From Astropecten irregularis (lineage: Eukaryota > Echinodermata > Asteroidea > Paxillosida > Astropectinidae): a DNA stretch of 64,000 nucleotides. Each line of letters begins with the position of its first letter. Position 1 is the first letter of the stretch. A program made the translations under genes and the position numbers. The notes under the pieces are model-generated. The model worked only from the letters and a program-made list of their open reading frames with translations. It was not told the origin of the DNA and did not search any database. This document shows, piece after piece, positions 7,869 to 33,000 of the stretch. The stretch is from assembly GCA_963971285.1 (NCBI GenBank), contig OZ020251.1, forward strand, positions 8,866,001 to 8,930,000, given 5' to 3'.

Positions 7869-7870
7869 TT

Positions 7871-7964
7871 AATACACGGGTTTACACTTCTAAAAGTGCG
7901 CATGCGTGATAGTGCCTCGTTTTTAAGTCGCGATCAAAACCGCCGAAGTGTAAACCCGTGTATT
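7871..7964. mobile_element. Short foldback element with 20-bp perfect inverted repeats
   Basis: Left arm AATACACGGGTTTACACTTC at 7871-7890 is exactly complementary to the right arm at 7945-7964. A second, altered copy follows at about 7979-8074. Both contain GTGCGCATGCGTG, and the second also carries AAGATGGCCGCC, a YY1-like motif. Confidence 0.75.
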
Positions 7965-8209
7965 GTCTTCGACAATGGACGGGTTTACACTTCGAAAGGT
8001 GCGCATGCGTGGAAGTGTCTCGTTTTGAAGTTGCGATCAAAATCTAAGATGGCCGCCATGGCCGCCCGTGTATTGCTGAGGCTGGAAATTCGTATACGCT
8101 AACCTTTGACCCTTTTTTGATAACACGATATAATTTCTGATTTTTTTTTTCACGAAAACCTTCATGAAGTGTTCTAGAAATGTTGTGCTATATACTCTGC
8201 ACTTTTTTT

Positions 8210-10054
8210 GGCTTTTTCGCGCAAGCGAAAAGCCTTTGTTTTTATTCTGTTTTTTGGCTTTTCCATGTTCAATGGAAAAGGTATTGTTTTTGTTCTGATT
8301 TTTTTCTTGGCTTTTCCGTGTTCAACGGAAACGGTATTGTTTTTGTTCTGATTTTTTTTCTTTTTGGCTTTTCCGTGTTCAACGGAAAAGGTATTGTTTT
8401 TGTTCTGATTTTTGGCTTTTCCGATTGTGATCGGAAAAGGTATTACTTTTGTTCTGTTTTTTTTTTTTTTCTTCTTCTCCTCAATTTGTATTGACTTTGT
8501 ACACAAATTTTGTCTGCGGCACTTCGGTCATTTTTTAATAGCCGATTTTAACCAAAGTTGGTCTGAAGGAAGTCCATATAGGGAAATTGTCTCCCGAAAC
8601 TTTTCGTCGTCATGACGTCATCAGGTGTCATGTGACAAGCAATTTGAATTTTAAAATCAAAATCTTCAAAAATCAACAAAAAATCAACGGTTTCAGATAT
8701 TAAGTTGATTCTTTCACCAAAAGTGATTGTTAGGCAGGGTCTTTCTTTGTGACACATAACTTGACCTCTGTGACCTCTACTTCCGGTCAAACAGGAAGTA
8801 GCTCCTCTTTTAAAAGTGGTAAGAGCTATGATCATGATTCTTTCACCAATAGACAATGTTAGGCAAGGTCTTTCATTTGTGACATATTACTTGACCTCTG
8901 TGACCTCTACTTCCGGTCAAACAGGAAGTAGCTCCTCATTTAAAAGTGGTAAGAGCTATGATCATGATTCTTTCACCAATAGACAATGTTGGGCAAGGTC
9001 TTTCATTTGTGACACATTGCTTGACCTCTGTGACCTCTACTTCCGGTCAAACAGGAAGTAGGTCCTCATTCAAAAGTGGTAAGAGCTATGATCATGATTC
9101 TTTCACCAAAACTCAATGTTAGGCAAGGTCTTTCTTTGTGACACATTGCCTGACCTCTGTGACCTCTACTTCCGGTCAAACCGGAAGTAGCTCCTCATTT
9201 AAAAGTGGTAAGAGCTATGATAATGATTCTTTCACCAAAACTAAATGTTAGGCAAGTTCTTTCTTTGTGACACATTGCTTGACATCTGTGACCGCTACTT
9301 CCGGTCAAACAGGAAGTAGCTCCTCATGTAAAAGTGGTAAGAGCTAGGGTCATGATTCTTTCACCAAAAGTGATTGTTAGGCAGGGTCTTTCTTTGTAAC
9401 ACATTGCTTGACCTCTGTGACCTCTACTTCCGGTCAAACAGAAGTAGCTCCTCATTTAAAAGTGGTAAGAGCTAGGATCATGATTCTTTCACCAAAAGTG
9501 AATGTTAGGCAAGGTCTTTCTTGGTGATACATTGGTTGACCCCTGTGACCTCTACTTCCGGTCAGACAGGAAGTAGATCCTAATTTAAAAGTGTTTAGAG
9601 CTTTGATCATGATTCTTTCACCTCAGGTCAATGTTAGGCAAGGTCTTTCATTTGTCACATATTGCTAGACCTCTGTGACCTCTACTTCCGGTCAAACAGG
9701 AAGTAGCTCCTCATTTAAAATTGGTAAGAGCTAGGATCATGATTCTTTCACAAAAAGTGAATATTAGGTAAGGTCTTTCTTTGTGATACATTTGTTGACC
9801 CCTGTGACCTGTACTTCCGGTCAAACCTGAAGTAGTTCCTCATTTTAAAGTGGTAAGAGGTATGATCAGGACTCTTTCACCAAAAGTTAATATTAGGCAA
9901 GGTCTTTCTTTTTGACACAAACACTACCAATACATTTGAAGTAGGCTTAATATCTTAATCAAATGTCTTTGTGTGTGAAAGGTTTTGACAATTTATTTGA
10001 ATATCATAAAACGGAAAAGCCTTGTGTTCTCTTTTCAAGAGACACAATCTCTAG
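8210..10054 (+). mobile_element. HINE/Helentron-like element 1, with five stacked 5' hairpins
   Basis: Starts with five successive hairpins (8210, 8256, 8309, 8366, 8414), each beginning GGCTTTT. This is the complement of the 3' motif CGGAAAAGCC, as in sub-terminal inverted repeats. Then come T-rich sequence, a conserved body containing TGACGTCA, about nine copies of a 130-bp central repeat (about 8750-9900), CGGAAAAGCC, a hairpin (TCTCTT-TTC-AAGAGA, 10028-10042) and CTAG at 10051-10054. No protein is encoded. The hairpin plus CTAG and central tandem repeats fit non-autonomous Helitron/Helentron families; no transposase is present to prove it. Confidence 0.65.
8750..9920. repeat. 130-bp central tandem repeat block (largest, about nine units)
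   Basis: Units repeat every 128-131 bases. Each holds TGACCTCTGTGACCT, then ACTTCCGGTCAAACAGGAAGT-like inverted halves, CTCCTCATTTAAAAGTGG, GATCATGATTCTTTCACC and GTTAGGCAAGGTCTTTC. Further blocks lie at about 10715-11090, 11560-12045, 16624-17030, 17420-18410, 18725-19240, 19675-20070, 20455-20850 and 21220-21640, roughly forty units in all. Confidence 0.9.
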
Positions 10055-11236
10055 TTTTTTCTTCTTCTTCTTCTTCTTCTTCTTGTCGTTGGAATTCCTA
10101 TAGACAAAGCACAGGGGCATTCTCGGTGCCACTTTGGCCACTTTTAAACTGCCGATTTTAACCAAACTTGGTAAAAACACAGTCCCTGTAGGGTAGTTGT
10201 GTGCGCAACATTTTCGCCATCATGACGTCATCAGGTGTCACGTGACAGTGTCTTAAAGGGGCAAACTTCAGACATAAATTTTGAACGAACCCTAAGTCCG
10301 ATTGAGTTGAAACTTGGTATGTATCTAAGTCGGGATTTGTTATATATCGAAAAATTGCAATGACGTCATCATGACGTCATTCCCTGATTTTTAATGATTT
10401 ATTGAAATGTTGGGTCATTAAAGTTCTTTTAACGATATCTAGTAAACGAAACAAGATATCTTTGAATTTCTTTTTGATCATTCTTCAGCATACACCATAG
10501 ATGAACACTGTATAGACAAAAATTCAGTGACGTCATCATGACGTCATAAAAAATGCGATTTTTATAACACATAGTAGGAACGGCCGATCGCCTTGAAAAT
10601 TGGTACATTGGTGGGTTGGAGGTTCGGGATTGTAATTCTGAAGTTACGTCAAGACAGCGTCATTTTGTTTATTTTTTATGATTTTTAAAAATATTGTTCA
10701 CGCTATAGCCCATTGACTTGTACAGGGCAAACAGGAAGTAGCTCCTCATATAAAAGTGGTAAGAGCTGTGATCATGATTCTTTCACCAAAAGTCAATGTT
10801 AGGCAAGACTTCCATTGTGACACATTGCTTGACCTCTGTGACCTCTACATCCGGTCAAACAGGAAGTAGCTCCTAATTTAAAAGTGGTAAGAGGTATGAT
10901 CATGATTCTTTCACCAATAGACAATGTTAGGCAAGGTCTTTCATTTGTGATACATTGCTTGACCTCTACGACCTCTACTTCCGGTCAAACTGGAAGTAGC
11001 TTCTGATCTAAAAGTTGTTAGGGCTATGATCATGATTCTTTCGCCAAAAGTCAATGTTAGGCAAGGTCTTTCTTTGTGACAGAAATATGACCAAGTCACG
11101 TGAGTGTATGATTAAAGGTGCATACTTCAAAGGAATAAAACTTAAGATCTTAATCAAATGTCTTTGTCTGTATAAGGTTATGTTGATTTTTCTATAAAAC
11201 GGAAAAGCCTTGTGTTCTGTTTTCAACAGACACAAT
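10055..11236 (+). mobile_element. HINE-like element 2
   Basis: Begins directly after the CTAG of element 1 with a (TTC)n tract. The body carries clustered TGACGTCA sites (about 10220-10540). About three 130-bp repeats lie at 10715-11090. CGGAAAAGCC and a hairpin (TCTGTT-TTC-AACAGA) follow near 11205-11230. The terminal CTAG is absent; the sequence runs into the 5' part of the next element. Confidence 0.55.
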
Positions 11237-12165
11237 TTCATTTAATCGGAAAAGGTATTGTTTTTGTTCTGATTTTTTTTTTCTTCTTCTTCTTTTTCTT
11301 GTCGTTTGAGTTACCATAGGTTTTTGTCTGCGGCATTTTGGTCACTTTTAAAGAACCGATTTTAACCAAATTTGGTCTGAAGGAAGTCCATATAAGGTAG
11401 TTGTGTCCCGAAACTTTTCGCCATCATGACGTCATCAGGGGTCAAGTGACAAGCGATTTGAATTAAATAATCAAAATCTTAAAAAATTAACAGAAAATCA
11501 ACGGTTTGAGATATTAAGTTGATTCTTTCACCAAAAGTGATTTTTAGGTAGGGTCTTTCTTTGTGACACATTGCTTGACCTCTGTGACCTCTACTTCCGG
11601 TCAAACAGGAAGTAGCTCCTCATTTAAAAGTGGTAAGAGCTATGATCATGATTCTTTCACCAATAGACAATGTTAGGCAAGGTCTTTCATTTGTGACACA
11701 TTGCTTGACCTCTGTGACCTCTACTTCCGGTCAAACAGGAAGTAGCTCCTCATTTAAAATTGGTTAGAGCTGTAATCATTATTCTTTCACCAAAGGTCAA
11801 TGTTAGACAAGGTCTTTAATTTGTGTTTTATTGCTTTACCTCTGTGACCTCTACTTCCGGTCAAACCGGAAGTAGCTTCTCATTTAAAAGTGGTAAGAGC
11901 TAGGATCATTATTCTTTCACCAAAAGGGAATGTTAGGCAAGGTATTTCTTTGAGACACAATGCTTGACCTCTGTGACCTCTACTTCCGGTTAAACAGGAA
12001 GTAGCTCCTCATTCCAAAGTGGTGAGATCTAGGATCATGATTCTTTTTTTAATTGTCCATTAAGGGATCCCTTTCTTTGTATAACAGTTTATATTTGTAA
12101 TTCAATTGATAATATCATATGCGGAAAAGCCCTATGTGCTGTTTGCAACAGCCATAGATGTCTAG
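11237..12165 (+). mobile_element. HINE-like element 3
   Basis: 5' part truncated (ATCGGAAAAGG arm of the 5' hairpin only), (TTC)n, body with ATGACGTCAT, four 130-bp repeats (about 11560-12045), GCGGAAAAGCC at 12121, hairpin GCTGTT-TGC-AACAGC at 12138-12152 and CTAG at 12162-12165. Confidence 0.6.
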
Positions 12166-13251
12166 TATTGTATTTGAGTTTGTTCTGTTGCCCACTGACT
12201 TTGTACACAGATTTTTCTCCGCGGCACTTTGGTTACTTTTAAACAGCCGATCTCAACCAAACTTGGTCTGAATGAAGTCCATATAGGGTAGTTGTGCCCC
12301 AAAACTTTTCATTATCATGACGACAAAACTTGATTTTATATGATTTTTTAAAATATTTATCTAGCCCGTTCACTTTGTACACAGATTACGTGAACATGGT
12401 CGTTGTACAAAACATGAACCTCGATCAATTTCCTATTATACTATGAACATGTACAGTGTACATGTAGGCCTACGTACGCAATTCACTGTGTATAAAATAC
12501 AATGCACATGTCCGATCGCGTGACACAAAACGTCGTTTACAACTCGCCATAGTTTGCACGTAAGTCCTTTTATATATCATTAAATACCAGCACCAAATCT
12601 TAATCAAAATGCTATCGATGGGTCGTGTTCAGTTTCCAAGTATAATACTTGGGAAGAGTTAGATGGAAAAACTGAAATGATCCATCGAGTTTGTCTTTTT
12701 GTACGTGGCAATTTGGTCAGCGCAGTTTTACACATGAAACAAGTAAATGTCACGTCCTTTGCCATGGACTTAGTAGGCGTCTTTTTCTATACGTGGCAAT
12801 CATGCAGTTTAAGACTAAATTTCATTATGGAAGCAAATATGTTTCATGCAATCATGTTCTCCAAATGATTTGTATTCGCAAATGATTTCGTATTCACAAA
12901 AGATATTGTCTTCACGCAATCATTTGTCGTAGACGATATGCGATTACGCAAAATGATTTTGTATTCGTAAATGATTTTGTATTCGCATATTCGTATTCGC
13001 AAATGATTTTGTATTCGCATTTTTATATCGCCTTCAAGAAAGTCTAAGAAGATCATCATTAACGAATACAAAATCATTTTGCGTATTAGCAAATGATATC
13101 GTCTTCGACAAATGAATACGCAAAATGATTACGTACTCAATATGAGGGATCCATTTCTAGTTATTTGTATAACATTTTATAATATTAATTTGTAATAATT
13201 ATCGTATGCGGAAAAGCCTTATGTGCTGTTTTCAACAGCCATAAACTCTAG
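12166..13251 (+). mobile_element. HINE-like element 4, 18-bp central repeats
   Basis: Follows element 3 without a gap and shares its body motifs (GACTTTGTACACAG, AACCAAACTTGGTCTGAA). In place of the 130-bp repeats it has an 18-bp type at 12866-13135. It ends with GCGGAAAAGCC, hairpin GCTGTT-TTC-AACAGC (13225-13239) and CTAG at 13248-13251. Confidence 0.55.
12866..13135. repeat. 18-bp minisatellite, block 1
   Basis: Runs of AAATGATTTTGTATTCGC and variants (GATTTCGTATTCAC, GATATCGTCTTCGAC). Part of the block is in inverted orientation (AAAATCATTTTGCGTATT near 13069), so it can fold back on itself. Confidence 0.8.
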
Positions 13252-14412
13252 TTTTGTATTTGAGTTTGTTCTGTGGCCCATAGACGGTGTACACGTTTTT
13301 TCTTTTTTTCTGCACCCCACTTTGGTAATTTTTAAACAGTCGATCTTGACCAAACTTGGTTCAAACAAAGTCCCTATGATGTACATGTGTGCCGAATATT
13401 TTCGTCATCATGACGTCGATCATCGGTTGTTTTTTCATAAATGTTTAAATATTTCTCACGCTAGTCCCTTAACTTTGCACATAGTTTACGTGAAATCTTT
13501 GCCCATGTACAAAACATATGATGCTCGAATTCAGGAATTCCCAAAGTACGTTTCATGTACGTACGTACATGTCCCTGTGTAAAACATAATGTCCGATTGC
13601 CTGACTCAAAACTTCGATTACATCTTGCCATAGACAATTCACCTACGTAATACTGGCATCAACATCTTAATCGAAATGCTACCGATGTAAATTGCGGTGT
13701 ATTGTATGTCATTTGATGGGTCGTGTTAAGCTATACATGTACAACTTAATACTTGGGAAGATTGTATGGAAAAGTGCAATGATCCATATAGACTTTATCT
13801 TTCTGTACGTGGCAATAATGATGATCAGTTTTGCACATGGACAAATTAAATGTCACTCATTTCCCAATATAAGAATTCAGTACATAGAAGCAAATTATGT
13901 TTCGATGCCGTCGAAAAATGAGCTGTTCTCGAAATAATTTAGTATTTTCAATATGATTTCGTATTCGCGAATGATTTTGTATTCGCCAATGATATCGTCT
14001 TCGCAAAATGATTTCGAATAATTCTCAAATTGATTTTGTATTCGCAAATGATTTCGTATTCAAGAAATCATTTTGCGAAGACGATATGTCATTTGCGAAT
14101 ACGCAAAATGATTTTGTATTCGCAGATGATTTTGTATTTGCAAAATTATTTTGTATTCGCAAAATGATTTTGGGTCCTCAAAAGCATTCCATGTTCTCCA
14201 ACGTCATCATGATGTCATCGTATGTCCAACGACAATGTGTTCCAAAAACCTTGCAACTAAATGGGTAAAATTTTAGTTTTCTACATTGAGATACGGTCAC
14301 TTTTAAACCATATGTCTTAATTAAACAAAATAATTCAAGTGTATTAATTTGAGAAATAATCTATATTTAGGCGGAAAAGCCTTCTGTTCTGTTTTCAACA
14401 AACAAAACCTTT
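13252..14412 (+). mobile_element. HINE-like element 5, 18-bp central repeats, degraded 3' end
   Basis: Close relative of element 4 (same 5' TTTTGTATTTGAG start). It contains the 18-bp-type repeats at 13930-14180 and a GCGGAAAAGCC at 14371. The 3' hairpin is damaged (TCTGTTTTCAACAAA) and no CTAG follows. Confidence 0.5.
13930..14180. repeat. 18-bp minisatellite, block 2
   Basis: Same unit as block 1 in the next element, again with an inverted stretch near 14065-14085 (GAAATCATTTTGCGAAGACG). Confidence 0.8.
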
Positions 14413-14454
14413 ACAATTCATCGTCTGTACTTGTTTTTTGTCCCACAACGTTTT

Positions 14455-15085
14455 TAAATAGTACACTGGTTAAAACCTGCGTGTCATGGGACGTGGTGCT
14501 AATTATTTATTGAGCTTTATTCTCCAACATTTGCGTTTTCTTTTCTTTGTTTTCCATTTTTCATTTTACCGTTTTTTCCTTGTTTCACGACTTTTTCTTT
14601 ATATGGCAAACGTTAACATCTACATGTGCCGGGTCATGATAAGTTGAGCTTGACTTCCAAGCATTATTTTACTTCTGCTGTAAATATGTTAAAACGGATA
14701 AAACATGACATAAATGGCACTCTCTAACAAAATGACTGTAAAATACGAGTCCCGTTTACTAGAAGTGATCCATTTCTGATTGTGATTGTGATAAGTGATT
14801 CTCATTTCGTTGATTTCACGTTTCGATGTATACACAATTAAACCAAATAAAGATGGAGCCAGGAACATTGACCAGATGAAGGGTGGTGAATTTTGCGATG
14901 ATACAGGAAATTTCTGACATTTAGTTTTACCAGGACACGTTGATGTTGTTTTGTTTATGGACAACTTCATTTAAGAGCATTTTGGAGCAAAATAATTCAT
15001 AACCATTTACTGCTTATGAACGTTTATTACAATACAATGTGGCAAAACAATGACAGATATAATATTGAATATTATACAGTCTGCT
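14455..15085. repeat. Diverged 0.6-kb duplicate, copy 1, with a possible minus-strand exon
   Basis: Similar to 15825-16423 from TACACTGGTTAAAACCTGCG onward. On the minus strand 14970-14689 reads 93 codons. One hydrophobic segment is followed by YTSKREINEM, faintly like the seventh helix and tail of a rhodopsin-family receptor. Copy 2 keeps the same frame for about 57 codons with mostly conservative changes, which hints at past coding use. Splice sites are not clear, so I do not call a gene. Confidence 0.45.
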
Positions 15086-15824
15086 GATGAAATGCTGACG
15101 CTATTAGAATAATACGCTTAACTGGTTATATCTGTGTGCGTCGATAAGACCCATGACATTGAGAAGAGCAATTAACGTAAATATTTGATTCCATACACGA
15201 GCCAACAGATAAGCCAATGGAATCAGTAGGAGATGGTACAGACACGAACAAAAATGCAAATGTCAAGCCTTTAAAAAAACCCATATACATCGGGATCCAT
15301 TCGGTAAAGATGAAAACACTGCACTTGTAATGTAGCCTGGTAAGTTGTGCTACCTGCAAAGGGTCTTGTACCCAATATGCCTATGTGTGATTGGAACGAC
15401 AAGGGTTCTCCATACCCGACGAAGCCCTGGTAATACATCATATATAATTATGCCATGCTTGTCTATCTACAATGATAAACTAAAACATGTGTTTTATACG
15501 CAATATGAAACCTAGAGTGACATGATTCAATTTGATATATGTATTCTTGCTGAATGGCAAAGATTCTAACTCCTCGGTGAAGCCCTGGTAATACATACAT
15601 TTGAAGTGTATAGCTATAAGACACATTTTTTTCAAATAGATATATCAAAGAAAAGAATTAAATGTGAAGTATTTTGTAAAATTTGACGATTAACGAATTC
15701 ACAAAGTTAAGATAACTCGTAATTTTGCGATACTATGCTAAAAACCCTTCCGTTTTTTGTTGTTTATTTTCTTTTTTACAATTCATAGGATATAGTAGGT
15801 ATTTTTCCTCCACACAGTTTAAGC

Positions 15825-16423
15825 TTAATACACTGGTTAAAACCTGCGTGTGATGGGACGTGAGGGTAATGACAGATAGGGCTTCACGCTCCTGCATTTA
15901 CGTTTTCATTATTACATTTCTCCATTTTCACCGTCTTTGCCTTTTTCACCACGTTTTTATTGTATGGAACACGTTAAAATAAGTTGAGCTTGACCTCCAC
16001 GCATTATTTTACTTCTCGTGTAGGTATGTTATAACGTATGAAGATGACAAATATGTGACTCTCTAACTAAACTAAAGGACTATCAAACTCGATTCCCGTT
16101 TACAGACTCGATACCCGTTTACTTCAAAGTGTTCAATTTCAGCTCATTTCGTTGATTTCACGTTTCGATATATACACAATTAAACCAAATAAAGATGGAG
16201 CCAGAAACATTGGCAAGATGAAGGATGGTGAACTTTGCAATGATACAAGAAATTTCTGACATTTAGTTTTACGAGAAAACGTTGATGTTGTTTTGTTTAT
16301 GGACAATTTCATTTGAAGGAAGCTTGGAGCAAAATAATGAAAAACTATTTACTGCCAATGAACATTTATAACCATACAATGTGGCAAAACAAGGAAAAAT
16401 ATAAGACTGAATATTACCCAGTT
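15825..16423. repeat. Diverged 0.6-kb duplicate, copy 2 (ends at assembly gap)
   Basis: Second copy of the 14455-15085 sequence, with small indels. The conserved minus-strand reading frame runs from 16314 down to about 16140. It is cut by the N run. Sequence between the two copies (15086-15824) holds a twice-repeated GAAGCCCTGGTAATACAT phrase but no recognised gene. Confidence 0.6.
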
Positions 16424-16623
16424 NNNNNNNNNNNNNNNNNNNNNNNNNNNNNNNNNNNNNNNNNNNNNNNNNNNNNNNNNNNNNNNNNNNNNNNNNNNNN
16501 NNNNNNNNNNNNNNNNNNNNNNNNNNNNNNNNNNNNNNNNNNNNNNNNNNNNNNNNNNNNNNNNNNNNNNNNNNNNNNNNNNNNNNNNNNNNNNNNNNNN
16601 NNNNNNNNNNNNNNNNNNNNNNN
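16424..16623. other. Assembly gap (200 N)
   Basis: Exactly 200 unknown bases, a conventional placeholder length. The sequence to the right starts inside a 130-bp repeat unit, so part of a HINE-like element is missing here. Confidence 0.99.
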
Positions 16624-17104
16624 GGTCTTTCATTGTGACACATTGCTTGACCTCTGTGACCTCTACTTCCGGTCAAACAGGAAGTAGCTCCTCATTTAAT
16701 AGTGGTAAGAGTTATGATCATGATTTTTTCACCAAAAGTGAATGTTAGGCAAGGTTTTTCATTTGTGTTACATTGCTTGACCTCTGTGACCTCTACTTCC
16801 GGTCAAACCGGAAGTAGCTCCTCATTTAAAAGTGGTAAGAGCTATGATCATGATTCTTTTACCAAAAGTCAGTGTTCGGCAAGGTCTTTCTGTGTGACAC
16901 ATAGGTTGACCCCTGTGACCTCTACTTCCGGTCAAACAGGAAGTAGCTCCTCATTTAAAAGTGGTAAGAGCTATGATCATAATTGTTTCGCCAAATATCA
17001 ATGTTAGGCAAGGTCTTTCTTTGTGAGACAATTCTAATTGACATGCAAATTATATCATATGCGGAAAAGCCTTATGTGCTGTTTTCAACAGCCATAAACT
17101 CTAG
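16624..17104 (+). mobile_element. HINE-like element 6 (3' part)
   Basis: Starts at the gap inside a 130-bp unit, has about three units, then GCGGAAAAGCC at 17061, hairpin GCTGTT-TTC-AACAGC at 17078-17092 and CTAG at 17101-17104. Confidence 0.6.
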
Positions 17105-18464
17105 TTGACTTTTTCGCACTTTCGAGTGCGAAAAAGTTATTCTTTTTGTTCTGATTTTTTTTTTCTATTTCCTCTTCCTCTTCTTCTTCTCCGGTGGCCC
17201 ATTCAATTTGTACACGTTTTATTCTTAGCGCGACTTTAGTGCTTTTGCAAGTTTGGATCATCATCAAACTTATACCAATGAATGACCCTTATGCAGGGAT
17301 GATCCTAAAACAATGATGTCATGATGACGTCATCAGGTGTCAAATTACAAGCAATTTAAATTTAATAATCAAAATCTTCAAAAATCAACAAAAAAATCAA
17401 TGGTTTGAGATATGAACTTAATTCTTTCACCAAAGGTCAATGTTAGGCAAGATTTTTCTTTTTGTCAAGTTACTTGACCTCTGTGACCTCTACTTCCGGT
17501 CAAACAGGAAGTAGCTCCTCATTTAAAAGTGGTAAGAGCTATGATCATGATTCCTTCACCAAAAGTCAATGTTAGGCAAGGTCTTTCTTTTTGACATGTT
17601 ACTTGACCTCTATGACCTCTTCTTCCGGTCAAACAGGAAGTAGTTCCTCATTTAAAAGTGGTAAGAGCTAGGATCATGATTCTTTCACCAAAAGTCAATG
17701 TTAGGCAAGGTCTTTCATTGTGACACATTACTTGACCTCTGTGACCTCTACTTCCGGTCAAACAGGAAGTAGCTCCTCATTTAAAATTGGTAAGAGCTAT
17801 GATCATGATTCTTTCACCAAAAATCAGTGTTAGGCAAGATCTTTCATTGTGACATATTACTTGACCTCTGTGACCTCTACTTCCGGTCAAACAGGAAGAA
17901 GCTCATCATTTAAAAGTGGTAAGAGCTATGATCATGATTCTTTAACAAAAAAGTCACTGCGAGGCAAGGTCTTTCATTGTGACACATAACTTGACCTCTG
18001 TGACCTCTACTTCCGGTCAAACAGGAAGTAGCTCCTTATTTAAAAGTGGTAAGAGCTATGATCATGATTCTTTCACAAAAAAGTCACTGCGAGGCAAGGT
18101 CTTTCATTGTGACACATAACTTGACCTCTGTGACCTCTACTTCCGGTCAAACAGGAAGTAGCTCCTTATTTAAAAGTGGTAAGAGCTATGATCATGATTC
18201 TTTCACCAAAAGTCATTGTTAGGCAAGGTCTTTCATTGTGACAAATAACTTGACCTCTGTGACCTCTACTTCCGGTCAAACAGGAAGTAGCTCCTCATTT
18301 AAAAGTGGTAAGGGCTATGATCATGATTCTTTCACCAAAAGTCAATGTTAGGCAAGGTCTTTCATTTGTGACACATTGCTTGACCTCTGCGACCTCTACT
18401 TCCGGTCAAACAAGTCATTCGCGAAAAAGTCATTTGCTCTGTCAGTTGACAGACAAACCTCTAG
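17105..18464 (+). mobile_element. HINE-like element 7
   Basis: Begins right after CTAG with TTGACTTTTTCGCAC, the first arm of a hairpin closed by GTGCGAAAAAG. Body with ATGACGTCAT, eight 130-bp repeats (about 17420-18410), then GCGAAAAAGTC, a hairpin TCTGTC-AGTT-GACAGA (18438-18453) and CTAG at 18461-18464. The 5' and 3' sub-terminal motifs (GACTTTTTCGC and GCGAAAAAGTC) are exactly complementary in this copy. Confidence 0.7.
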
Positions 18465-19370
18465 TCTGTTTTTTCTTCTTCTTCTTAATCTTCTTCAGCC
18501 AAATTTCGTATAGACTTTGTACAGGGGCATTCTACGTGCCACTTTGGTCACTTTTAAACAATCGATTTTAACCAAACTTGGTCTGAAGGAAGTCCATATA
18601 GGGTACTTGTGTCCCGAAACTTTTCGTCGTCATGACGTCATCAGGTGTCATGTGACCAGCGATTTGTATTTAATAATCAAATTCTTTAAAAATCAACAAA
18701 AAATCAACGGTTTGAGATATTAAGTTGATTCTTTCACCAAAACTAATTGTTAGGCAGGGTCTTTCTTTGTGACACACTGCTTGACCCCTGTGACCTCTAC
18801 TTCCGGTCAAACAGGAAGTAGCTCCTCATTTAAAAGTGGTAAGAGCCAGGATCATGACTCTTTCACCAAAAGTGAATGTTAGGCAAGGTCCTTCTTTGTG
18901 ATACATTGGTTGACCCCTGTGACCTCTACTTCCGGTCAAACAGGAAGTAGCTCCTCATTTAAAATTGGTTAGAGCTGTAATTATTATTCTTTCACCAAAG
19001 GTCAATGTTAGGCAAGGTCTTTAATTTGTGTTATATTGCTTGACCTCTGTGACCTCTACTTCCGGTCAAACCGGAAGTAGCTTCTCATTTAAAAGTGGTA
19101 AGAGCTAGGATCATTTTTCTTTCACCAAAAGGGAATGTTAGACAAGGTCTTTCTTTGAGACACAATGCTTGACCTCTGTGACCTCTACTTCCGGTTAAAC
19201 AGGAAGTAGCTCCTCATTCCAAAGTGGTAAGATCTAGGATCATGATTCTTTTTTCAATTGTCCATTAAGGGATCCCTTTCTTTGTATAACAGTTTATATT
19301 TGTAATTCAATTGATAATATCATATGCGGAAAAGCCATATGTGCTGTTTGCAACAGCCATAGATGTCTAG
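18465..19370 (+). mobile_element. HINE-like element 8
   Basis: TTC tract, body, four 130-bp repeats (about 18725-19240), GCGGAAAAGCC at 19326, hairpin GCTGTT-TGC-AACAGC at 19343-19357, CTAG at 19367-19370. Confidence 0.6.
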
Positions 19371-20190
19371 TTGGCTTTTTCGCGGAAGCGAAAAGCCTTT
19401 GTTTTTGTTCTGTTTTGTTTTCTTCTTCCTCCTCCTCTTCTTCTGCTGCCAAAATCCCATAGACTTTACACAGGGGTATTCTATACCCCACTTTGGTCAC
19501 TTTGAAACAGCCGAACTTAACCAAACTTGGTCTGAAGGAAGTCCATATAGAATAGTTGTCTCACGAAACTTTTCTCAATGATGACGTCATCAGGTGTCAT
19601 GTGACCAGCGATTTGAATTTAATAATCAAAATCTTCAAAAATCAACAAAAAATCAACGGTTTGAGATAATAAGTTGATTCTTTCACCAAAAGTGATTGTT
19701 AGGCAGGGTCTTTCTTTGTGACACACTGATTGACCTCTGTGACCTCTACTTCCGGTCAAACAGGAAGTAGCTCCTCATTTAAAATTGGTTAGAGGTTTGA
19801 TCATTATTCTTTAACCAAAGGTCAATGTTAGGCAAGGTCTTTCATTTGTGTTATATTGCTTGACCTCTATGACCTCCACTTCCGGTCAAACCGGAAGTAG
19901 CTTCTCATTTAAAAGTGGTAAGAGCTAGGATCATGATTCTTTCATAAAAAGTTAATGTTAGGCAAGGTCTTTCTTTGTGACACAATGCTTGACCTCAGTG
20001 ACCTCTACTTCCGGTTAAACAGGAAGTAGCTCCTCATTCCAAAATGGTAAGATCTAGGATCATGATTCTTTTTTCAATTGTCCATTTAGGGATTCCTTTC
20101 TTTGTCTAACAGTTTATATTTGTAGTTCAATTTATAATATCATATGCGGAAAAGTCCTATGTGCTGTTTGCAACAGCCATAGATGTCTAG
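19371..20190 (+). mobile_element. HINE-like element 9
   Basis: Starts TTGGCTTTTTCGCGG with a closing arm GCGAAAAGCC, complementary to the 3' motif. Three 130-bp repeats, GCGGAAAAG at 20146, hairpin at 20163-20177, CTAG at 20187-20190. Confidence 0.65.
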
Positions 20191-20965
20191 TTTTTCTTCT
20201 TCTTCTTCTTCCTCTTCTTCAGCCAAATTTCGTATAGACTTTATACAGGGGCATTCTACGCGCCACTTTGGTCTTTTTAAAACAATCGATTTTAACCAAA
20301 CTTGGTCTGAAGGAAGTCCATATAGGGTAGTTGTCTCCCGAAACTTTTCATCATCATGACGTCATCGGGTGTCATGTGACCAGCGATTTGAATTTAATAA
20401 TCAAAATCTTCAAAAATCAACAAAAAATCAACGGTTTGAGATATTAAGTTGATTCTTTCACCAAAAGTGATTGTTAGGCAGGGTCTTTCTTTGTGACACA
20501 CTGATTGACCTCTGTGACCTCTACTTCCGGTCAAACAGGAATTAGCTCCTCATTTAAAATTGGTTAGAGGTTTGATCATTATTCTTTAACCAAAGGTCAA
20601 TGTTAGGCAAGGTCTTTCATTTGTGTTATATTGCATGACCTCTATGACCTCTACTTCCGGTCAAACCGGAAGTAGCTTCTCATTTAAAAGTGGTAAGAGC
20701 TAGGATCATGATTCTTTCATCAAAAGTTAATGTTAGGCAAGGTCTTTCTTTGTGACACAATGCTTGACCTCAGTGACCTCTACTTCCGGTTAAACAGGAA
20801 GTAGCTCCTCATTCCAAAATGGTAAGATCTAGGATCATGATTCTTTTTTCAATAGTCCATTAAGGGATTCCTTTCTTTGTCTAACAGTTTATATTTGTAG
20901 TTCAATTTATAATATCATATGCGGAAAAGTCCTATGTGCTGTTTGCAACAGCCATAGATGTCTAG
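20191..20965 (+). mobile_element. HINE-like element 10
   Basis: Starts TTTTTCTTC directly after CTAG. Nearly the same sequence as element 9 without the 5' hairpin. Three 130-bp repeats, hairpin at 20938-20952, CTAG at 20962-20965. Confidence 0.6.
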
Positions 20966-21734
20966 TTTTTCTTCTTCTTCCTCTTCTTCAGCCAAATTTC
21001 GTATAGACTTTGTACAGGGGCATTCTACGCGCCACTTTGGTCTTTTTAAAACAATCGATTTTAACCAAACTTGGTCTGAAGGAAGTCCATATAGGGTAGT
21101 TTTCTCCCGAAACTTTTCATCATCATGACGTCATCGGGTGTCATGTGAAAATTTGAATTTAATAATCAAAATCTTAAAAAATCAACAAAAAAACAACGTT
21201 TTGAGATATTAAGTTGATTCTTTCACCAAAAGTGATTGTTAGGCAGGGTCTTTCTTTGTAATACATAACTTGACCTCGGTGACCTTTACTTCCGGTTGTA
21301 CCGGAAGTTGCTCCTCATTTAAAAGTGGTAAGAGCTATAGGATCATGATTCTTTCACTAAATATCAATGTTAGGCAAGATCTTTCTTCGTGACACATAAC
21401 TTGACCTCGGTGACCTTGACTTCCAGTCAAACCGGAAGTTGCTTCTCATTAAAAGTGGTAAGAGCTAAAATCATGATTTTTTCACTAAATATCAATGTTA
21501 GGCAAGATCTTTCTTTGTGACGTACACATAGCTTGAGCTCTGTGACCTCTACTTCCGGTCAAACAGGAAGTACCTTGTCACTTAAAAGTGGTAAGAGCTT
21601 TTATCATGATTCTTTCGCCAAATGTCAATGTAAGGGAAGGTCTTTCTTATGACACAATACGATCTGATTGACAAGCAATTGATATCATATGCGGAAAAGC
21701 CTTATGTGCTGTTCCAAACAGCCATAAACTCTAG
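20966..21734 (+). mobile_element. HINE-like element 11 (last of the series)
   Basis: Starts TTTTTCTTC, about 770 bp long like its neighbour. Three more diverged central repeats (with TTGACTTCCAGTC variants), GCGGAAAAGCC at 21691, hairpin GCTGTT-CCA-AACAGC at 21708-21722, CTAG at 21731-21734. Unique sequence follows. Confidence 0.6.
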
Positions 21735-23904
21735 TTTTACTTTGAAGCCGGGGGGTTCCTTTAAAATAAAGTCATAATAAGGAATAAAATCAACCATATC
21801 TCTTCTAAAAGAGCAAACTAAATGCACGAAACGTTAATTACTCAATTAATCATCAACAAATGAAAAATTAAATGATATACCCTATCTCCCTTAGGGGTGC
21901 ACCCTAGTAAATAGTCCCAAAATCTGTCAGCCGAGCTCATTTATAAAAGTTAAGCACTCAATATATTTTAAATAAGAGAATTCTGAGAGCTGTAAAAATA
22001 AGGAATTGAAGAAATGATGGCACTGGACATCCTTCCTGGACATCTGTGATTCTATTTGTTACCATTTGTGATGCAATTGGGTGAGAAAGTGGTATATTTC
22101 AGCCGCTTTGCAGAGGGATTATTATTTTTTTTGAAAATGGCTTCTTTAAATGGAGTGATCCACACCTTGTCTTAGGGGTGGTCAGCTGAGACTAAGTATA
22201 TCTCAAAATTTCAATGGTCAACCCACCATAAAATGAAAATAAAATAAAAGGTGACATAATGTTCATCACTATTTTTCTGTGCAACTTGAATAGCTGTGAG
22301 AGTTCTGTATAATATTTTTAAATGATTTTTTAAGTATAAGGGTTTATCACTGTTGTCTATGGGGGTTTACTTGGGTGCAACCTTAAACAATTGGCGTAAC
22401 CCGACCGACCCTAATGCTTGTCAACTCGTACACCAACCAACTCGTACGCCAACCAACTCGTACGCCGACCAACTCGTACGCCAACCAACTCGTACGCCGA
22501 CCACCTCGTACGCCAACCAACTCGTACGCCCCAACTCGTACGCCAACCAACTCGTACGCCACCAACATTAAGATTTTATAGTTTGTAATAACAAAATAAA
22601 CAAGCACTGGGTGTGCGGTGCTCGTCCACGTCGGTGGGGGCAAACCTAATTTGAATATGATCTTGATATTATCTAAAATTCCTGAATTTAGAGACCTTAT
22701 TTTGGTTAAAAACATTTTTTTTTTCAAATTTAGATTCGTTTTAGAAAGACGTGCAAATAACCGGTGACATGCCATGGGTTCTTATAAATAAAAAAGTTAG
22801 CCTACTTGGGGCAGGCTAAAAACTGTCTTTGTTTGTAATTCCCCTTACTTGATTGAAGTTGTAATAATGTTGTTGCCAAAATGACATTGTAATTATTACT
22901 TAGTTGTTAAAGATTTAAAGGTACTAGTATCATACATTGGTTTTTGTCAAAGAAACACAGATTTATGGGCAGTCCCATTTCATTCCCATACGGTGCCAAC
23001 TTTTTGAGAAAACAATGAAAAACGGCCACATTATTTCTTAATATTTTGTCTTTTATGTTTGATCTTTTAAAAGAAAATTACTTATGCATGTATTTTGACC
23101 ATAAGTCTTATTTTTTCTTTCCTGAACAAAAAAGATGTAATCTACACCTTTATCGGGTTCCACAGAGAACCTTTCATAAGCAGGGCTGCCTACCAAAAAA
23201 GATCAGCAGTCGGTCGGGTCATGGGCGTAGCTCACGGGGGCTGGGGGGGGGGGGGGGGGGGGGGGTTAGAAGTTCATATTGTATAATATTTGTGCATAAA
23301 CGTATGGAAGGAAATACGTACCAGCCAGGTCTAACAGGACTTGTCTACACTACTGGATTGGATGATGTATAGCCTAAACATTTTATTATTATCATTTCAA
23401 AAATAATAGCTTTCAAAACGTGTTAGCTTCTGAAAAAAAGCTGTTTTCATGTTATGTGCTCCAATGTTTTGACTCAATTTTTGTAGCTTCGTAGAATGCT
23501 ATAATACAATGTATTATTATAAAAGCTCGGCAAATCGGACATAGGCCCCTTAGCAGTCTCGGCGGGTGGGGAGGGGGCAGAAAGTTACCGGTGTCATGAA
23601 TAATCCTGAATAATTTATCGCTTGTCCAGCAGCACAATTCCGAGAACATCGATAGAGGAGGCTATAATAATCAACGAACTCACTTCTTCTTGGAGTGGTT
23701 CAAACGATAAAGTCAGACTTGGATTAAGACTATAGTCAAGATTACAACGAGACACGCCCGCTTTGAATCAAGTCTACTCATACCCTGACCTTTGACCCTG
23801 AACCCGGGTCATGGGGTCATATGCCAGCTGAGTGGTACAGTTTCTGTGTGGTAGAGCTTGGGTGGGTGGAAGAAAAATGTTGTAAATCTGTGCTGGTTTT
23901 GCAG
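21735..23904. other. Stretch upstream of C12orf4, no certain gene
   Basis: Contains a 16-bp minisatellite (22422-22563), a partial family-A MITE (about 22917-23075) and a long G run (about 23245-23266). The 5' untranslated exon and promoter of the C12orf4 gene should lie somewhere here or upstream, but I cannot place them. Confidence 0.5.
22422..22563. repeat. 16-bp minisatellite
   Basis: About nine copies of CAACTCGTACGCCAAC with A/G variants (CGCCGAC) and two shortened units. Confidence 0.9.
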
Positions 23905-27000: not shown

Positions 27001-30000
27001 CCTGTGACCTTTACCAATCATGTCTTGTACCTTTAACCAACCAGAGAATGAGACATCAAGGCTGGCATTAACCTCAACCAAATACATCTCCCTTTAATAT
27101 CTAGGAATGCGTGGCTTATGCACCGGACAGCAAGCCCAAACCAGAAGTGGGATTGGCCGAGATCTACCATAAGCTCATTCACTCTCCAGCGCTGGAGATT
27201 CTCTTCCGCTTGGAACACACTTATGCTGTGGCCGTCGAAGATATCTTAATACAAAGAGAGAAGGCTTTGGCAAAGCTGCAAGAAAGGTATAACCATACAT
27301 GTATAATTACTGCACAATGATTTGTGTAGTCTCAAGAATCTAAAATGTATAATACATGTATAGAGGGCGTGCATGTGACGTCACTTGACAGCTTATCGGC
27401 CATTTTGGACGGTACGCACGCACGCGTGGGCGTGGTACCAGACAGCATCAATTATGCACGCACTTCTGCGTGCGCGTCCGGTCGATTTGCAATCTATGCG
27501 AACGCATGTGGGTTAATTGTATTCACTGTACGTACGTGCATTATACACGTGTTCAGCGTTGCCGTCCAAAATGGCTTCCTGATCACGTGACCGCACGTCC
27601 TCTTTATATGTATGCATTGGTAAGAAAGGAAGGTTTGCAGAGAAATCATGTATAAATCAATGTGGGAGTCGAGTCCTCAAATTCGAGTACAGTACGCCGA
27701 GTACTTCTTCAAGGTCCAAGTACTGGACCGAGTACTGCTGAGTCCGGTTCTCGTCGCGGGACCACTCAAAAAGAAAGACTTAATAAACAAGATTGAGAGG
27801 CATATTTATTTATTCATCTGATGAAGTAGTTGTTGCTACGAAAGCTGCACATTTAAACTCTAGTTAGTCAATAAAGTGCTACTTGTATTGTTCTATGTTT
27901 TATTTTTATTAGACTGACACGGCTACCTACAATTGTATTGATTTAATCAGGTACGCGCGTGCTTCGCATAATGGTTGCGTAGAAACGGCTGTTAATACGA
28001 GTCCATTTTATTTGAGCATGTTGAGTTGTCCCGCGTCGAGAGCCGAACTCTCGTCATAGCCTTAAGTCTCGCGAGAAAGTATCGCGGTTTCGCGAGAGTT
28101 GAGTGAAAGAAGAGACGATCACAGTGATTTCAACAGACTTGGCTCCAAGTCTACAGTGTAAGTGGTATTAGGTACACAATTCTGAATGGTCCACATCCTT
28201 TGACTGTCCGTTCTTTTTTTTCATTTGAATGCAAGGCAATCGGCTCAGATCCACCAAGCAGTGCAGAACCTAGACTACACTCACAGTGACCAACAGGTTA
28301 ACAGACTGGCAGCGCAGCACTTTGAAAATATTCAGGTAAAACGCTTCAAGCAACGACTGCATGAACTGGGCCCAATTTCATGGCGGTACTTATCATAAGA
28401 GTGAAATGCAAGCGGAAAATTCTTTACTTGCAAGATCATTCATTTCATGTATTATACTTCTTGCTTAAATCGGCTATTGTAAAAATTTGGCACTTACCTC
28501 GTAAGTGATGAAATGAATGAGGATCATAAGCGCTGATTTCTGCGGTAAGCAGAGCCATGAAATTGGTCCCTAACGTGCCTCATATTATACAGTTGCTTTA
28601 TCTTGCTGTATGGTGCTTTTCATACTTAATAAGGAGAATTTTGACAAAAAACGGTGATATTATATGAATTACGCTTTGAGTTTGGAGGGCCTGACGTGTT
28701 TAAATCCTACCAGGATCTTTATTGAAGGCTCCTTTCGATAAAGATCCTGCTAGGATCGAAACGCGTCAGGCCCTCCTAACTCCAAGCATTGTATACATTT
28801 CAGGTCATTATTTTGGCTGATGAGCAATTTGCAGCAGTTTATAACTTGTATCAATATTGATCATCAAAAATGTCACATGTCATTTCACCTGTTGTTGTCA
28901 TCTGTCATTGTCACATCTCATACTGTCACCAATTATTTTGTCAGTTTGAAGAGGCAAAGTGGGACAGTGAGCTGAAGAATCTTCAGGACACCCAGCGGTT
29001 AGAGTTCAGGAACTGGATCGAGCAACTGCGAGATGATATGGAGAACGGAACGGAAGGACCAGTCAGCCGAAGGATCAGAGCAATGTCAGACCTGGTGTCT
29101 GCTCCAAGGAGGGAGGAGACGGTCGAAGAACCCAAACTGGAAGAGAGCTTCACTATCCATCTAGGTATTACTCAAATCAATACAAGTACCGGTTACCGGT
29201 AGTACAATAAGCTGCTGCAAAGTGCTCATCTGCTCATCAACCAAAGTATTGAGCATGATCTGCAGTCGATTTCACGAAACTAAGCGTAACTTACGCCATG
29301 ACATAACTTTCATGAAATGGGCGTAAGTTTGTTTGCCATAAAATGTGGCGCAAGCAGATTTACACAATTCGCAAGGTTTCGTGAAATCGGCTGCCGAGTT
29401 AGGGGGCCTGACATTTCATTTCATTTTACGTTGCGCCATAAAATTTGGTGCAAGCAGACTTTTAATACGCAATTGCGCAGATTTAGGAGGGCCTGACATT
29501 TCAAATCAGTGGGTGCATTTGTTTAGCTCCCCTGGGTCGACACCAGTCAACCTCGTCCCCCATTCTCTCGCTTGTTTTATGCGTTATAACACGACCATTC
29601 CCAGAAAGGGCTGACCCGGTGGAGCTAAACGAATGCACCCTATAGTGTCAAAGCATTTTTGTGGCTGCCATGACATACAATGTACCCGTATGTATGACAT
29701 GGGCGAATCACAACCACTATTAACTACACCCCATTATTGTGCATGTCATGGTAGTTGACCGCTGTTACAACAACTTTTGTTTACATTTCACTTGAGGTCT
29801 TCGTACCATAACCAAGCAAACAAAGATTATTCAGAAAAATCATGCGACATATGAAAAACACACAAATGTGCGCAGATTTGTGATGTACGATGCATCTCAC
29901 GTTATTATGTGCACAGATTTGTGATGTGCAAACATCGCACATTACATAATAAGCTCTGGCATTTGTGAATTTGCGACATACTATATGTATCAAACATTAT

Positions 30001-33000
30001 ACACTTATTTGCCTAGTGATGTGTGATTCCCCCTGCACCACCATTTTTTTGCCGTCTTGCACATGTATGCATGTACATGTACATGTAGTTAATTTCACGC
30101 TGTGAATAATATAATAAGTGTCATGTGTCATGGCGACCACTGACCATATCTTGCCCTGGGTACGAAGCCACACTATAAGGCTTTGATAGAATCTTGTTTG
30201 GATGATGTAATCATGGTAATGATAGGATGGCTACATGTATATACAGTCTGACTAAAATCAGTTCATTTATGTAGATTCTACTTTCGATTACACAAGTAAG
30301 AATGCTGTCTTACAAAAAAGAACTTTCCTCCCTGATAACTTTGTTCTACATTGACTGAGCTCATCTTTTCATTTACTCCTGTGCATTTAAGGTGCCCAGA
30401 TGAAAACAATGCACAACATTAGACTGATGTCGGTTGATGTTCTAGACCTCTGCAAACACAGACCCAACAGAGAAGGGTAAGTAACTCACAGCCATAGAGA
30501 TGCATACTAATAAACTAGAGATCGGACGCGCAATACTCCTCTGTACTGTGGCGCTGTGAGTGCATGTATATCCCGTGCCGCCATCACTATTATGGGCACG
30601 AATTACGTATACCGCAAGTGTACCATACCACAACCATAACAACGGGGAATGCTGTGCTGACGGAGCACTTGTGTATTCATGCGTAAACTACAGTACACAG
30701 GCCTACGCTGTCCGTACACAGCAAAGATAGTAAAGCGCTGGCGCAGTGCCCACTTCAATAATGCCAAATCGAACCCCACGTTGTCACAGAAATTTTGCCG
30801 AGCCCGCCCTCTAGTTTATTAGTATGTATCTCTATGCTCACAGCATAGTTAGAGAAACAGTAGCAGGCTTAGGGCCACTCAAAACTTTCAATGTTTTCTA
30901 AATTTCTACTTTTTTCGAAATAGTGGGAGGGTGGGTCATCAAGGAAATAAATTGATGTTAATCAACATCAATGTACTTGATGAAAAAAAATCTATTTTTT
31001 TTAAAATCAAAATTGGGGGTGGGTGGGTTGGTTCAAACAAAATTGGAGAAAAAGTCGAAATTTAAAAACATTGAACATTTTGAGTGGCCTCTTACCGACC
31101 AGCACAAGGCTAGACTCGAAATCAAGTCTGTTATTGAGCGGCTTTATTTGCGCCCGCCGCGCACTGCCACTCACTATGCCAGGGGTATGATTTATGTGTT
31201 TACCTTCTATTATTTCCAACTTGCGGGGACGTGATGATGGTACGTAGACATTTTTTACCCCTGGAGCACTATTCCAACCTATAACAGACGTGAATAACTT
31301 GTATCAACCGATGTACACATGCTATGGAAATTGTTACTGAATTTGGACAGAACATTCTTGCGAGTGTGTATTTTAACGATATGTTTTCTAACAGCACCAT
31401 CTTCATATCCTGAAAGTTATACATATGTATGTAAATCTCTGAACATTTCTGTTTGTGTATGTTTATCCTTTAAAGGTAGTGTTATAACTACAAATAATGT
31501 GGATATTTGAGTTAGTTTTGGGGATAACAACAGAGTAATTTATTTCATACTGCTGACATAGGAGCAGCCATCTTAGAACAAACACAGACTGTCTAACAAC
31601 GGTCACAAGAGGGCGCTATAACAAAATCGCTAGACATCAGGTTACTACAACTCCTCCCCTTTTAGATAAAACAAGGTAGGTTGACTTAAACCATGGCAAA
31701 AACATTTACTCAAAAAAATGCTTGAAAATGACATACCTAGGAAAGACTTTTTCCTTTTGGTTTCAAAACAAAAGCAACACTAATCAAAAAATCAATTAAA
31801 AAAGATGCAGTGAAGAATTAGAATCAAGCAAAATAAAACTTCAAGATGCACATGCAATGTGTGGCATTATTGACAAGAGTTCAAGTTCTCGCGGACATTG
31901 ACAAGAGTTAAAGTTCTCGCGGATATTGACAAGAGTTCAAGTGTCTGGAAATCCATAACGATCTGGTTTGTTCGGGTTGCGCGCAGACCGACGGAGTTCA
32001 GTTACTGACGTATTGTTCTCAGGTGGTTTTGGTGATTGCTGTGCAGGCATCGGATCACCGTTAACACTAGTAGGTTGTTCACCAACCATCTCCTCCATCT
32101 CTGGTAATGCAGTGGGGAATACTGGATCAATGACGGGTTGTTGTGACACATATCGGCAACGAATGTGGTCAACATGACGCTTCCACACGCGACCATCCTC
32201 AAGCTGAACTGTGTACATGAGATGACCAGCTACCGCTGTGATATGTCCTGCGAGCCATCGCGGGCCATTTGCGAAATTTTTCGCATATACTGTGTCATTG
32301 ACATCAAAAGAGCGATGTTTGGCCCGTTTGTCATGGTTTTCCTTCTGTACGAACTGCTTCTGATTAACGCGACGTTGGACGTCCGGTCGTAAGAAATTCC
32401 AGTCTTGTGCGTGGCTGACGATTCATCAGCATTTGTGCTTGAGACAATCCAGTAGTGGAATGGGGTGTGATACGATATGTCATCAAGAAACGCGACAACT
32501 TGGTTTCTACAGTACCGTTATCCATACGCTTCATTCCAGCTTTGAATGTCTGCACTGCTCTCTCGGCCAAACCATTGGACGAGGGGTGGAATGGTGCTGA
32601 TCTAACATGCTTGATACCATTCAACCGCAAAAACTCCTCGAACTCCGCACTGGTGAAATTGCTACCATTATCAGTCACAATGATTTCTGGCAGCCCATGA
32701 GTCGAGAAGGTTTGTCGTAGTTTCTCTATTGTAGCTTGCGACGTTGCAGTGTGCATAGCATGAATATCCAGCCATTTACTATGCGCGTCCACGATGACGA
32801 GGAACATTCGGCCCATAAATGGACCAGCGTAATCCAGGTGCAAGCGTGACCATGGCCGACTGGGCCATTCCCATGGGTGAAGTGGCGCCACTGGTGGAGA
32901 TTTCCTGGACTGTTGACAAGCAGGACATTGCTTAACTCTGTCCTCGAGGTCCCTGTCCATGCTAGGCCACCATACAAAACTGCGACCTAGTGACTTCATG

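Follow-up and report, generated by a model that had tools for sequence, protein, structure and literature searches.

Positions 8210 to 21734 of the Astropecten irregularis DNA analysed here (contig OZ020251.1, positions 8,866,001 to 8,930,000; 64,000 nucleotides, referred to as the window) hold an array of 11 abutting units of the HINE type, all on the + strand. The array is probably a stack of non-autonomous Helentron-type HINEs, built up as new HINEs repeatedly inserted into resident ones. Similar stacks are present elsewhere in the genome of this species. A complete unit consists of a leader, a body and a tail. The leader contains a GGCTTTTCCG-type repeat, a short loop, the inverted partner of the repeat, (TATTG)TTTTTGTTCTGATTT and a T-tract. 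The body has a TTC microsatellite, a conserved start and central repeats of ≈129 bp, while the tail contains CGGAAAAGCC, a hairpin and CTAG, followed by T.

New copies enter at T|T, chiefly at two positions of the resident element. The first is the T-tract between the resident 5' leader and the TTC microsatellite. Insertion here would pile up leaders at the start of the array and leave the older body without a leader behind the new tail. The second is the base after the resident CTAG, where insertion would give a CTAG-TT-GGC junction. Occasional tandem duplication and the copying of multi-unit blocks past internal tails may add further units. We infer that a Helentron Rep/helicase mobilises the HINEs, possibly through single-stranded or circular intermediates, and any reason for the preference for resident ends would be of the same inferential kind.

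Interrupted and uninterrupted elements

Leaders and tails were parsed with nhmmer profiles in the window and in 43 genomic pieces (L009–L051), merged to 38 sequences including the window. This gave 42 clusters with 85 bodies, of which 46 follow a tail and 39 a leader. Tails were counted as internal when they were complete ends (93 such) and the next leader or tail followed within 3.5 kb (64 of the 93). One weak window tail (18412) fell below the score cut-off and is absent from these automatic counts; the window by its own list has 8 leaders, one of them partial, and 11 tails.

The window array itself contains an interrupted element. When leader 4 (8366–8411, CCGTG type) is joined to the body starting at 10055, the joined sequence can be aligned across the join, with 5 bases fewer in the T-tract, with an uninterrupted unit of contig C1, and the stretch 8414–10054 therefore behaves as an insert. 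Of the eight body classes that have at least two members, seven were found both preceded by a leader and, without one, behind a tail (in one of these classes within a single cluster only). The eighth is the GAG class discussed below, and 22 more bodies are singletons. The T-tract is split rather than lost at insertions. Its mean length is 10.1 in uninterrupted tracts (n = 34), 7.2 from leader to leader (n = 29) and 4.3 from tail to body (n = 27), and the two halves predict 9.5 on the assumption of a single T at either end of the element.

A search with the joined outer flanks of the array supported its outer borders. Here 40 of the 370 candidates scored, namely the two flanks themselves and 38 other places, which are 80–87% identical and extend 19–63 bases past the join, as known from the alignment extents and not from the letters at the join. 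Independent insertions had been set aside in a first-pass annotation of the window; the interrupted and uninterrupted pairs and the empty sites favour them.

Insertion at the second position, directly behind a resident end, is seen in L009. A 1189-bp element (start TGGC, end CTAGT) here splits, at CTAGT|A, two 1348-bp GAG units that differ by 2 mismatches. Tail-to-leader junctions were collected with a pattern that demanded at least 2 T. Among the first 100 of the 293 listed there are 93 pure T-runs and 7 other strings, and the pure runs have 2 (73 junctions), 5 (11), 6 (6), 8 (2) or 10 T (1), and never 3 or 4. Leaderless microsatellite junctions have 229 genome matches, counted on the forward strand (the reverse list repeats overlapping matches and was not used).

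The arrays also contain mixed families. A second HINE family, found in L028, L031, L041 and L044, has the leader AGGTGTTCGG...CCGAACACCT and piled leaders of its own, and its T-tract receives elements of the first family. Ten matches to the body start of the second family were obtained. In five of these, a family-1 tail lies just upstream and the sequence that follows is of family 2; four have their own leader, and M012 has a tail upstream and a different sequence behind. In L028 and L044 the family-2 leader and body are visible on both sides of the family-1 element. Solitary copies with both ends at T-rich sites, which the first-pass annotation had suggested looking for, do exist, as 9 of the 42 clusters are single leader-tail copies. 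Of these, at least L028 and L044, and probably also the first one in L041, lie within the second HINE family and not in other DNA.

Several points weigh against growth by insertion as a full account of the arrays. The parsed loci were picked by motif and come nearly all from contig C1 below 7.4 Mb, with the window (C15) and one C11 stretch as exceptions, and are not a random sample of the genome. Nested order predicts a partner leader for a leaderless body, and this leader matched best in 5 of the 9 cases that could be tested (p = 0.14) and in 7 of 14 when GAG tails were omitted (p = 0.07); nested pairing of leaders and bodies is supported only weakly by paralogues. The best relative of body 10055 carries a leader identical to leader 2 (8256–8301, CCATG type), as against 0.96 for the predicted leader 4, and the partner leader is therefore not fixed. 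Leaders equal tails in number in 13 of the 25 clusters having both, or in 14 of 25 when GAG tails are disregarded. Units of the GAG type never have a leader in the parsed loci (11 of 11 lie behind a tail), so the simple insertion scheme does not cover them. Finally, 11 junction-crossing blocks of 1.1–2.5 kb are shared at 90–97% identity, ten between clusters and one within. Together with evenly spaced series of GAG units, these blocks indicate that block copying and duplication act besides insertion.

A strict balanced-parenthesis grammar of leaders and tails was tried as well and not relied on. The 12 leaders and 12 tails of M013 become 12 to 10 when leaderless GAG tails are subtracted, and the pairing is weak.

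Alternative origins of the arrays

The 25-base core of the GAG-type start has 249 matches genome-wide, and the 33-base string TCTAG-T-ATTTTTTTT-GAG, beginning TCTAGTATTTTTTTT, has 214; the two patterns overlap and neither contains the other. The tails in front of GAG units differ among themselves. These units would be explained if the HINE 3' end were a docking site, with new elements joined exactly at the CTAGT^ of a resident, whatever the next base. The GAG type would then have given up its own 5' end and persist only behind the tail of another element. We consider such docking possible, though rather doubtful. If true, end-directed joining would be what builds the arrays, and it would amount to a targeted form of rolling-circle transposition.

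Whole arrays, or parts of them, might also be mobile as composite elements that extend from an outer leader beyond internal tails, in which case the window array would have arrived largely ready-made. This is unlikely, but it agrees with the 11 blocks shared across a tail junction (e.g., L038:5593-7729 vs M013:12333-14475, 96.6%), with the many genome matches of the GAG start and the 33-base string, and with L038, which has a single leader ahead of two tails. Skipping of 3' ends has been described for Helitrons (PMC5148889). However, the longest shared block is 2479 bp and crosses one tail, none of the 11 crosses more than two, and the GAG units are preceded by differing tails.

Tandem duplication by unequal exchange, with few insertions, is a still poorer candidate for the main process. 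Near-identical local pairs are found in window units 9 and 10 (95.2%), in M015 (884 bp, 100%) and in L009 (1348 bp, 99.9%), and GAG starts are evenly spaced at several places among the matches listed. Yet just 5 of the 55 pairs of neighbours reach 80 in identity × coverage. Duplication would also fail to put a family-1 element in the T-tract of the second family, or to split a duplicated pair at CTAGT|A.

The first-pass annotation had attributed the direct abutment to rolling-circle read-through, in which one element is copied for several rounds and inserted as a head-to-tail concatemer. The abutting units all have one orientation, as this would require, and the joined ends of a single element would likewise yield a CTAG-TT-GGC junction; a Helitron2-type element with joined ends has been reported in Fusarium (PMC5148889). 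Read-through also predicts a leader at each start and near-identical neighbours. Behind the 64 internal tails, however, we found an immediate leader in only 18 cases, the T-run/microsatellite class in 34 (among them, by eye, a few cases of host or second-family DNA), a GAG start in 10 and another start in 2, one of which is a diverged GAG start. The mean identity × coverage of bodies was 27.9 for neighbours (n = 55), 22.2 for other pairs of the same cluster (n = 178) and 25.1 between clusters (n = 3337). The value of 80 was reached by 6 of the 178 other same-cluster pairs and 76 of the 3337 pairs between clusters, next to the 5 neighbour pairs given above. No row of near-identical leader-bearing units was found in the parsed loci; leaders pile up at array starts, and different body classes alternate. 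By eye, no three evenly spaced junctions occur among the first 100 of the 293 listed tail-to-leader junctions, and the evenly spaced series that were seen are leaderless GAG starts (e.g., nine starts 1348–1350 apart in C2:522781-533571). With leaders mostly absent internally and neighbours about as similar as units of different arrays, read-through is unsupported as the cause of the abutment and we regard it as very improbable.

An assembly artefact from misjoined or collapsed repeats, which the 200-N gap inside the array might suggest, is hardly credible, given that the same kinds of junction recur by the hundreds (293 tail-to-leader and 214 tail-to-GAG matches), that the array units are mostly distinct and that 38 other places match the joined outer flanks through the join.

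Composition of the array and its surroundings

The first-pass description of a head-to-tail series of about eleven elements holds, with 11 tails on the + strand within 8210–21734 in a single orientation. Each tail (10012–21734) has CGGAAAAGCC or a near variant and a hairpin, and 9 of the 11 have an intact CTAG. CGGAAAAGCC occurs exactly 11 times in the window (8 on the + strand in the array, 3 on the − strand) vs 0.07 expected from shuffles, the − strand occurrences lying in the leaders at 8309, 8366 and 8414. With up to one mismatch there are 12 matches on the + strand of the array, which are the 11 tails and, at 17128, an inverted partner within a leader. GCGAAAAAGTC occurs twice in the window vs 0.04 expected. 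Genome-wide (475.7 Mb) the CGGAAAAGCC 10-mer has 2135 + 2051 occurrences, leaders and tails both counted, vs 148 + 199 for the reversed control.

Five consecutive leader hairpins (8210–8460) form the start of the array. Leader 1 (8210–8253) has the 5' sub-terminal repeat GGCTTTTTCGC and its inverted partner, then a T-tract. Leader 3 (8309–8354) is of the CCGTG type like leader 4, and leader 5 (8414–8460) adjoins the first body. Unit 1 (8461–10054) contains a microsatellite, 129-bp repeats, the tail CGGAAAAGCC at 10012 and CTAG, and was delimited by sequence, repeat and profile searches. Unit 2 (10055–11239), without a leader, has its tail at 11200 and has lost CTAG; it is known from the profile search, the body classes and the joined-sequence alignment. 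Unit 3 (11240–12165) has a partial leader (11245–11275) and a tail at 12121. The leaderless units 4 (12166–13251) and 5 (13252–14410) are both of the GAG type, with tails at 13208 and 14371, the latter having lost CTAG. Unit 6 (14411–17104, tail at 17061), recognised from the sequence and by profile, has an atypical body that includes the 200-N assembly gap (16424–16623).

Unit 7 (17107–18464), found with motif and profile searches, combines the leader GACTTTTTCGC with the matching tail GCGAAAAAGTC at 18421, and both ends have therefore changed together. Unit 8 (18465–19370, tail at 19326) has no leader. Unit 9 (19373–20190, tail at 20146) has one and starts TT past the CTAG of unit 8. Unit 10 (20191–20965), also leaderless, is by body comparison a local duplicate of unit 9. 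The last unit, 11 (20966–21734), lacks a leader and has its tail at 21691 and CTAG at 21731–21734. The remaining leaders and units were delimited by profile search, and the same 11 approximate unit ends were obtained from motif and profile. Leaders are thus present at 3 of the 10 internal starts (11245, partial; 17107; 19373); at the others, the unit opens with a bare T-run and a TTC microsatellite, or else with another kind of body start. Direct abutment after CTAG, as claimed in the first-pass annotation, was seen at 8 of the 10 internal junctions; at 11239 and 14410 the tail end is degraded.

The Helentron/HINE-like identity proposed for the units is borne out by their anatomy. GGCTTTTCCG...CGGAAAAGG and variants pair in the leaders to form a 5' hairpin, and a 3' repeat complementary to the 5' repeat lies upstream of the 3' hairpin. 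Central tandem repeats of 129–131 bp are present in 9 of the 11 window units, while units 4 and 5 have repeats of 18–19 bp instead. In 28 of 33 distinct tail hairpins the outer stem has 5 pairs or more, and its versions TTGTG/CACAA, TTATG/CATAA and CTATG/CATAG are compensated changes, although the pattern used to collect the tails already favours such a shape. The elements are inserted at T-rich or TT sites without target-site duplication. In the 15 clusters with a leader at one outer end and a tail at the other, TT flanks the 5' side in 14 and the 3' side, after CTAG, in 14, and no longer duplication was seen by eye, where one of one or two T would escape. The longest N-free frame in the array has 127 amino acids, and the 4 N-free frames of at least 110 amino acids gave no Pfam match above the cut-off.

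The units were also compared with canonical Helitrons (Helitron1). CTAG, of the CTRR form, follows directly after the hairpin as in that group. The 5' TC and the insertion between A and T were not found, since the units start with TGGC or GGC and are flanked by T on both sides.

Outside the array, inverted and direct copies around ACGGGTTTACACTTC, by eye similar to a miniature inverted-repeat transposable element, lie just upstream at 7870–8070, and nine copies of a 16-bp tandem repeat, CAACTCGTACGCCAAC, shortly past it at 22422–22566. An exon-like frame on the + strand (28861–29202) matches Pfam Fy-3 (FERRY RAB5 effector complex subunit 3). On the − strand, 31937–35661 holds the frames of a Gypsy-type long terminal repeat retrotransposon (32364–34514 and 34420–35661), which encode a zinc knuckle, aspartic protease, reverse transcriptase, RNase H and integrase. 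A long open frame of a repeated 28-residue unit (41131–42468) is probably a minisatellite.

Autonomous Helentrons and known systems

The genome contains candidates for the autonomous Rep/helicase partner suggested in the first-pass annotation. Rep, helicase and endonuclease proteins are encoded in it, but in the stretches read no element turned up whose two ends match those of the HINEs. The Rep domain PF14214 has 149 genome matches at E ≤ 0.001, many of them in open frames of more than 3000 codons, and none in 14 control genomes. The copy in L049 has Rep, a PIF1 helicase and an Exo_endo_phos endonuclease match just below the curated cut-off, a predicted domain set that corresponds to the Helentron arrangement. 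A weak leader-like motif lies ≈650 bases 5' of the L049 open frame, with a score of 10.2 vs 8.6 for the best of 20 shuffles. The Helentrons from the search for shared HINE ends (L054 being included by profile scan only) are long, with extended 3' regions. Profile scans of the stretches read near the ends of Helentron open reading frames, in which the true Helentron 3' ends were not located, gave no HINE-type tail; leaving aside the reversed HINEs of the C11 region, the best in-orientation score there was 8.6 (E 0.05).

In this C11 region (≈16.20–16.39 Mb, L049–L051) several Helentron Rep matches lie on one strand, many ≈21–25 kb apart. The L049 region has a period of 21,330 bases, with 8274 shared 60-mers over the 8.6 kb compared, i.e., near-identical large tandem copies.

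The arrays suggest a way in which longer tandem DNA may be seeded by dispersed elements that carry satellite-like repeats. With their hundreds of natural junctions, they are also useful material for studying where Helentron-type elements insert. Leader pile-ups, leaderless bodies and empty sites make it possible to tell heterogeneous arrays from rolling-circle concatemers.

The units fit the published plan of HINEs and Helitron2 (PMC4067079; PMC7492417; PMC3627910). They share sub-terminal inverted repeats, a 3' palindrome, microsatellites or tandem repeats, T-rich targets without target-site change and the lack of coding capacity with the HINE or DINE-1-like elements of Helentrons (PMC4067079). 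Unlike these HINEs, they end in CTAG, matching the canonical Helitron CTRR. Those HINEs are described as deletion derivatives of an autonomous Helentron, whereas the array units are known from their own anatomy only. The order of modules is nearly identical in Cg_HINE of the Pacific oyster, with a 5' sub-terminal repeat, inverted partner, microsatellite, satellite-like central repeats, 3' sub-terminal repeat and palindrome, and likewise T-rich/TT targets (PMC7492417). No description of head-to-tail stacking of whole elements was noticed for Cg_HINE, and the terms "nested" and "tandem insert" are absent from the main text of that paper. Helitron2 shares the asymmetric terminal inverted repeats, a hairpin at the 5' end and a 3' hairpin, and some families insert adjoining T-rich tetranucleotides as seen here; the available account concerns element structure and not arrays (PMC3627910).

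Self-insertion of Helitron2 has already been published, for FoHeli of Fusarium, where it was proposed for several 5' termini ahead of one 3' terminus (PMC5148889). The same study reports one insertion at a distance of 2 bp from a second copy, and one tandem of three copies in a different fungus. It cites cases of tandem Helitrons from bat, fly, rice and maize, and for one head-to-tail case names both a rolling-circle multimer and self-insertion. Besides this study we recognised no account of comparable Helitron or Helentron stacks in the open literature, judged mostly from titles. The FoHeli cases are few, whereas the arrays described here have up to a dozen units, a precise target at the CTAG end and leaderless units. 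What is new is this scale and precision, together with a leaderless unit found almost solely behind the tail of another element.

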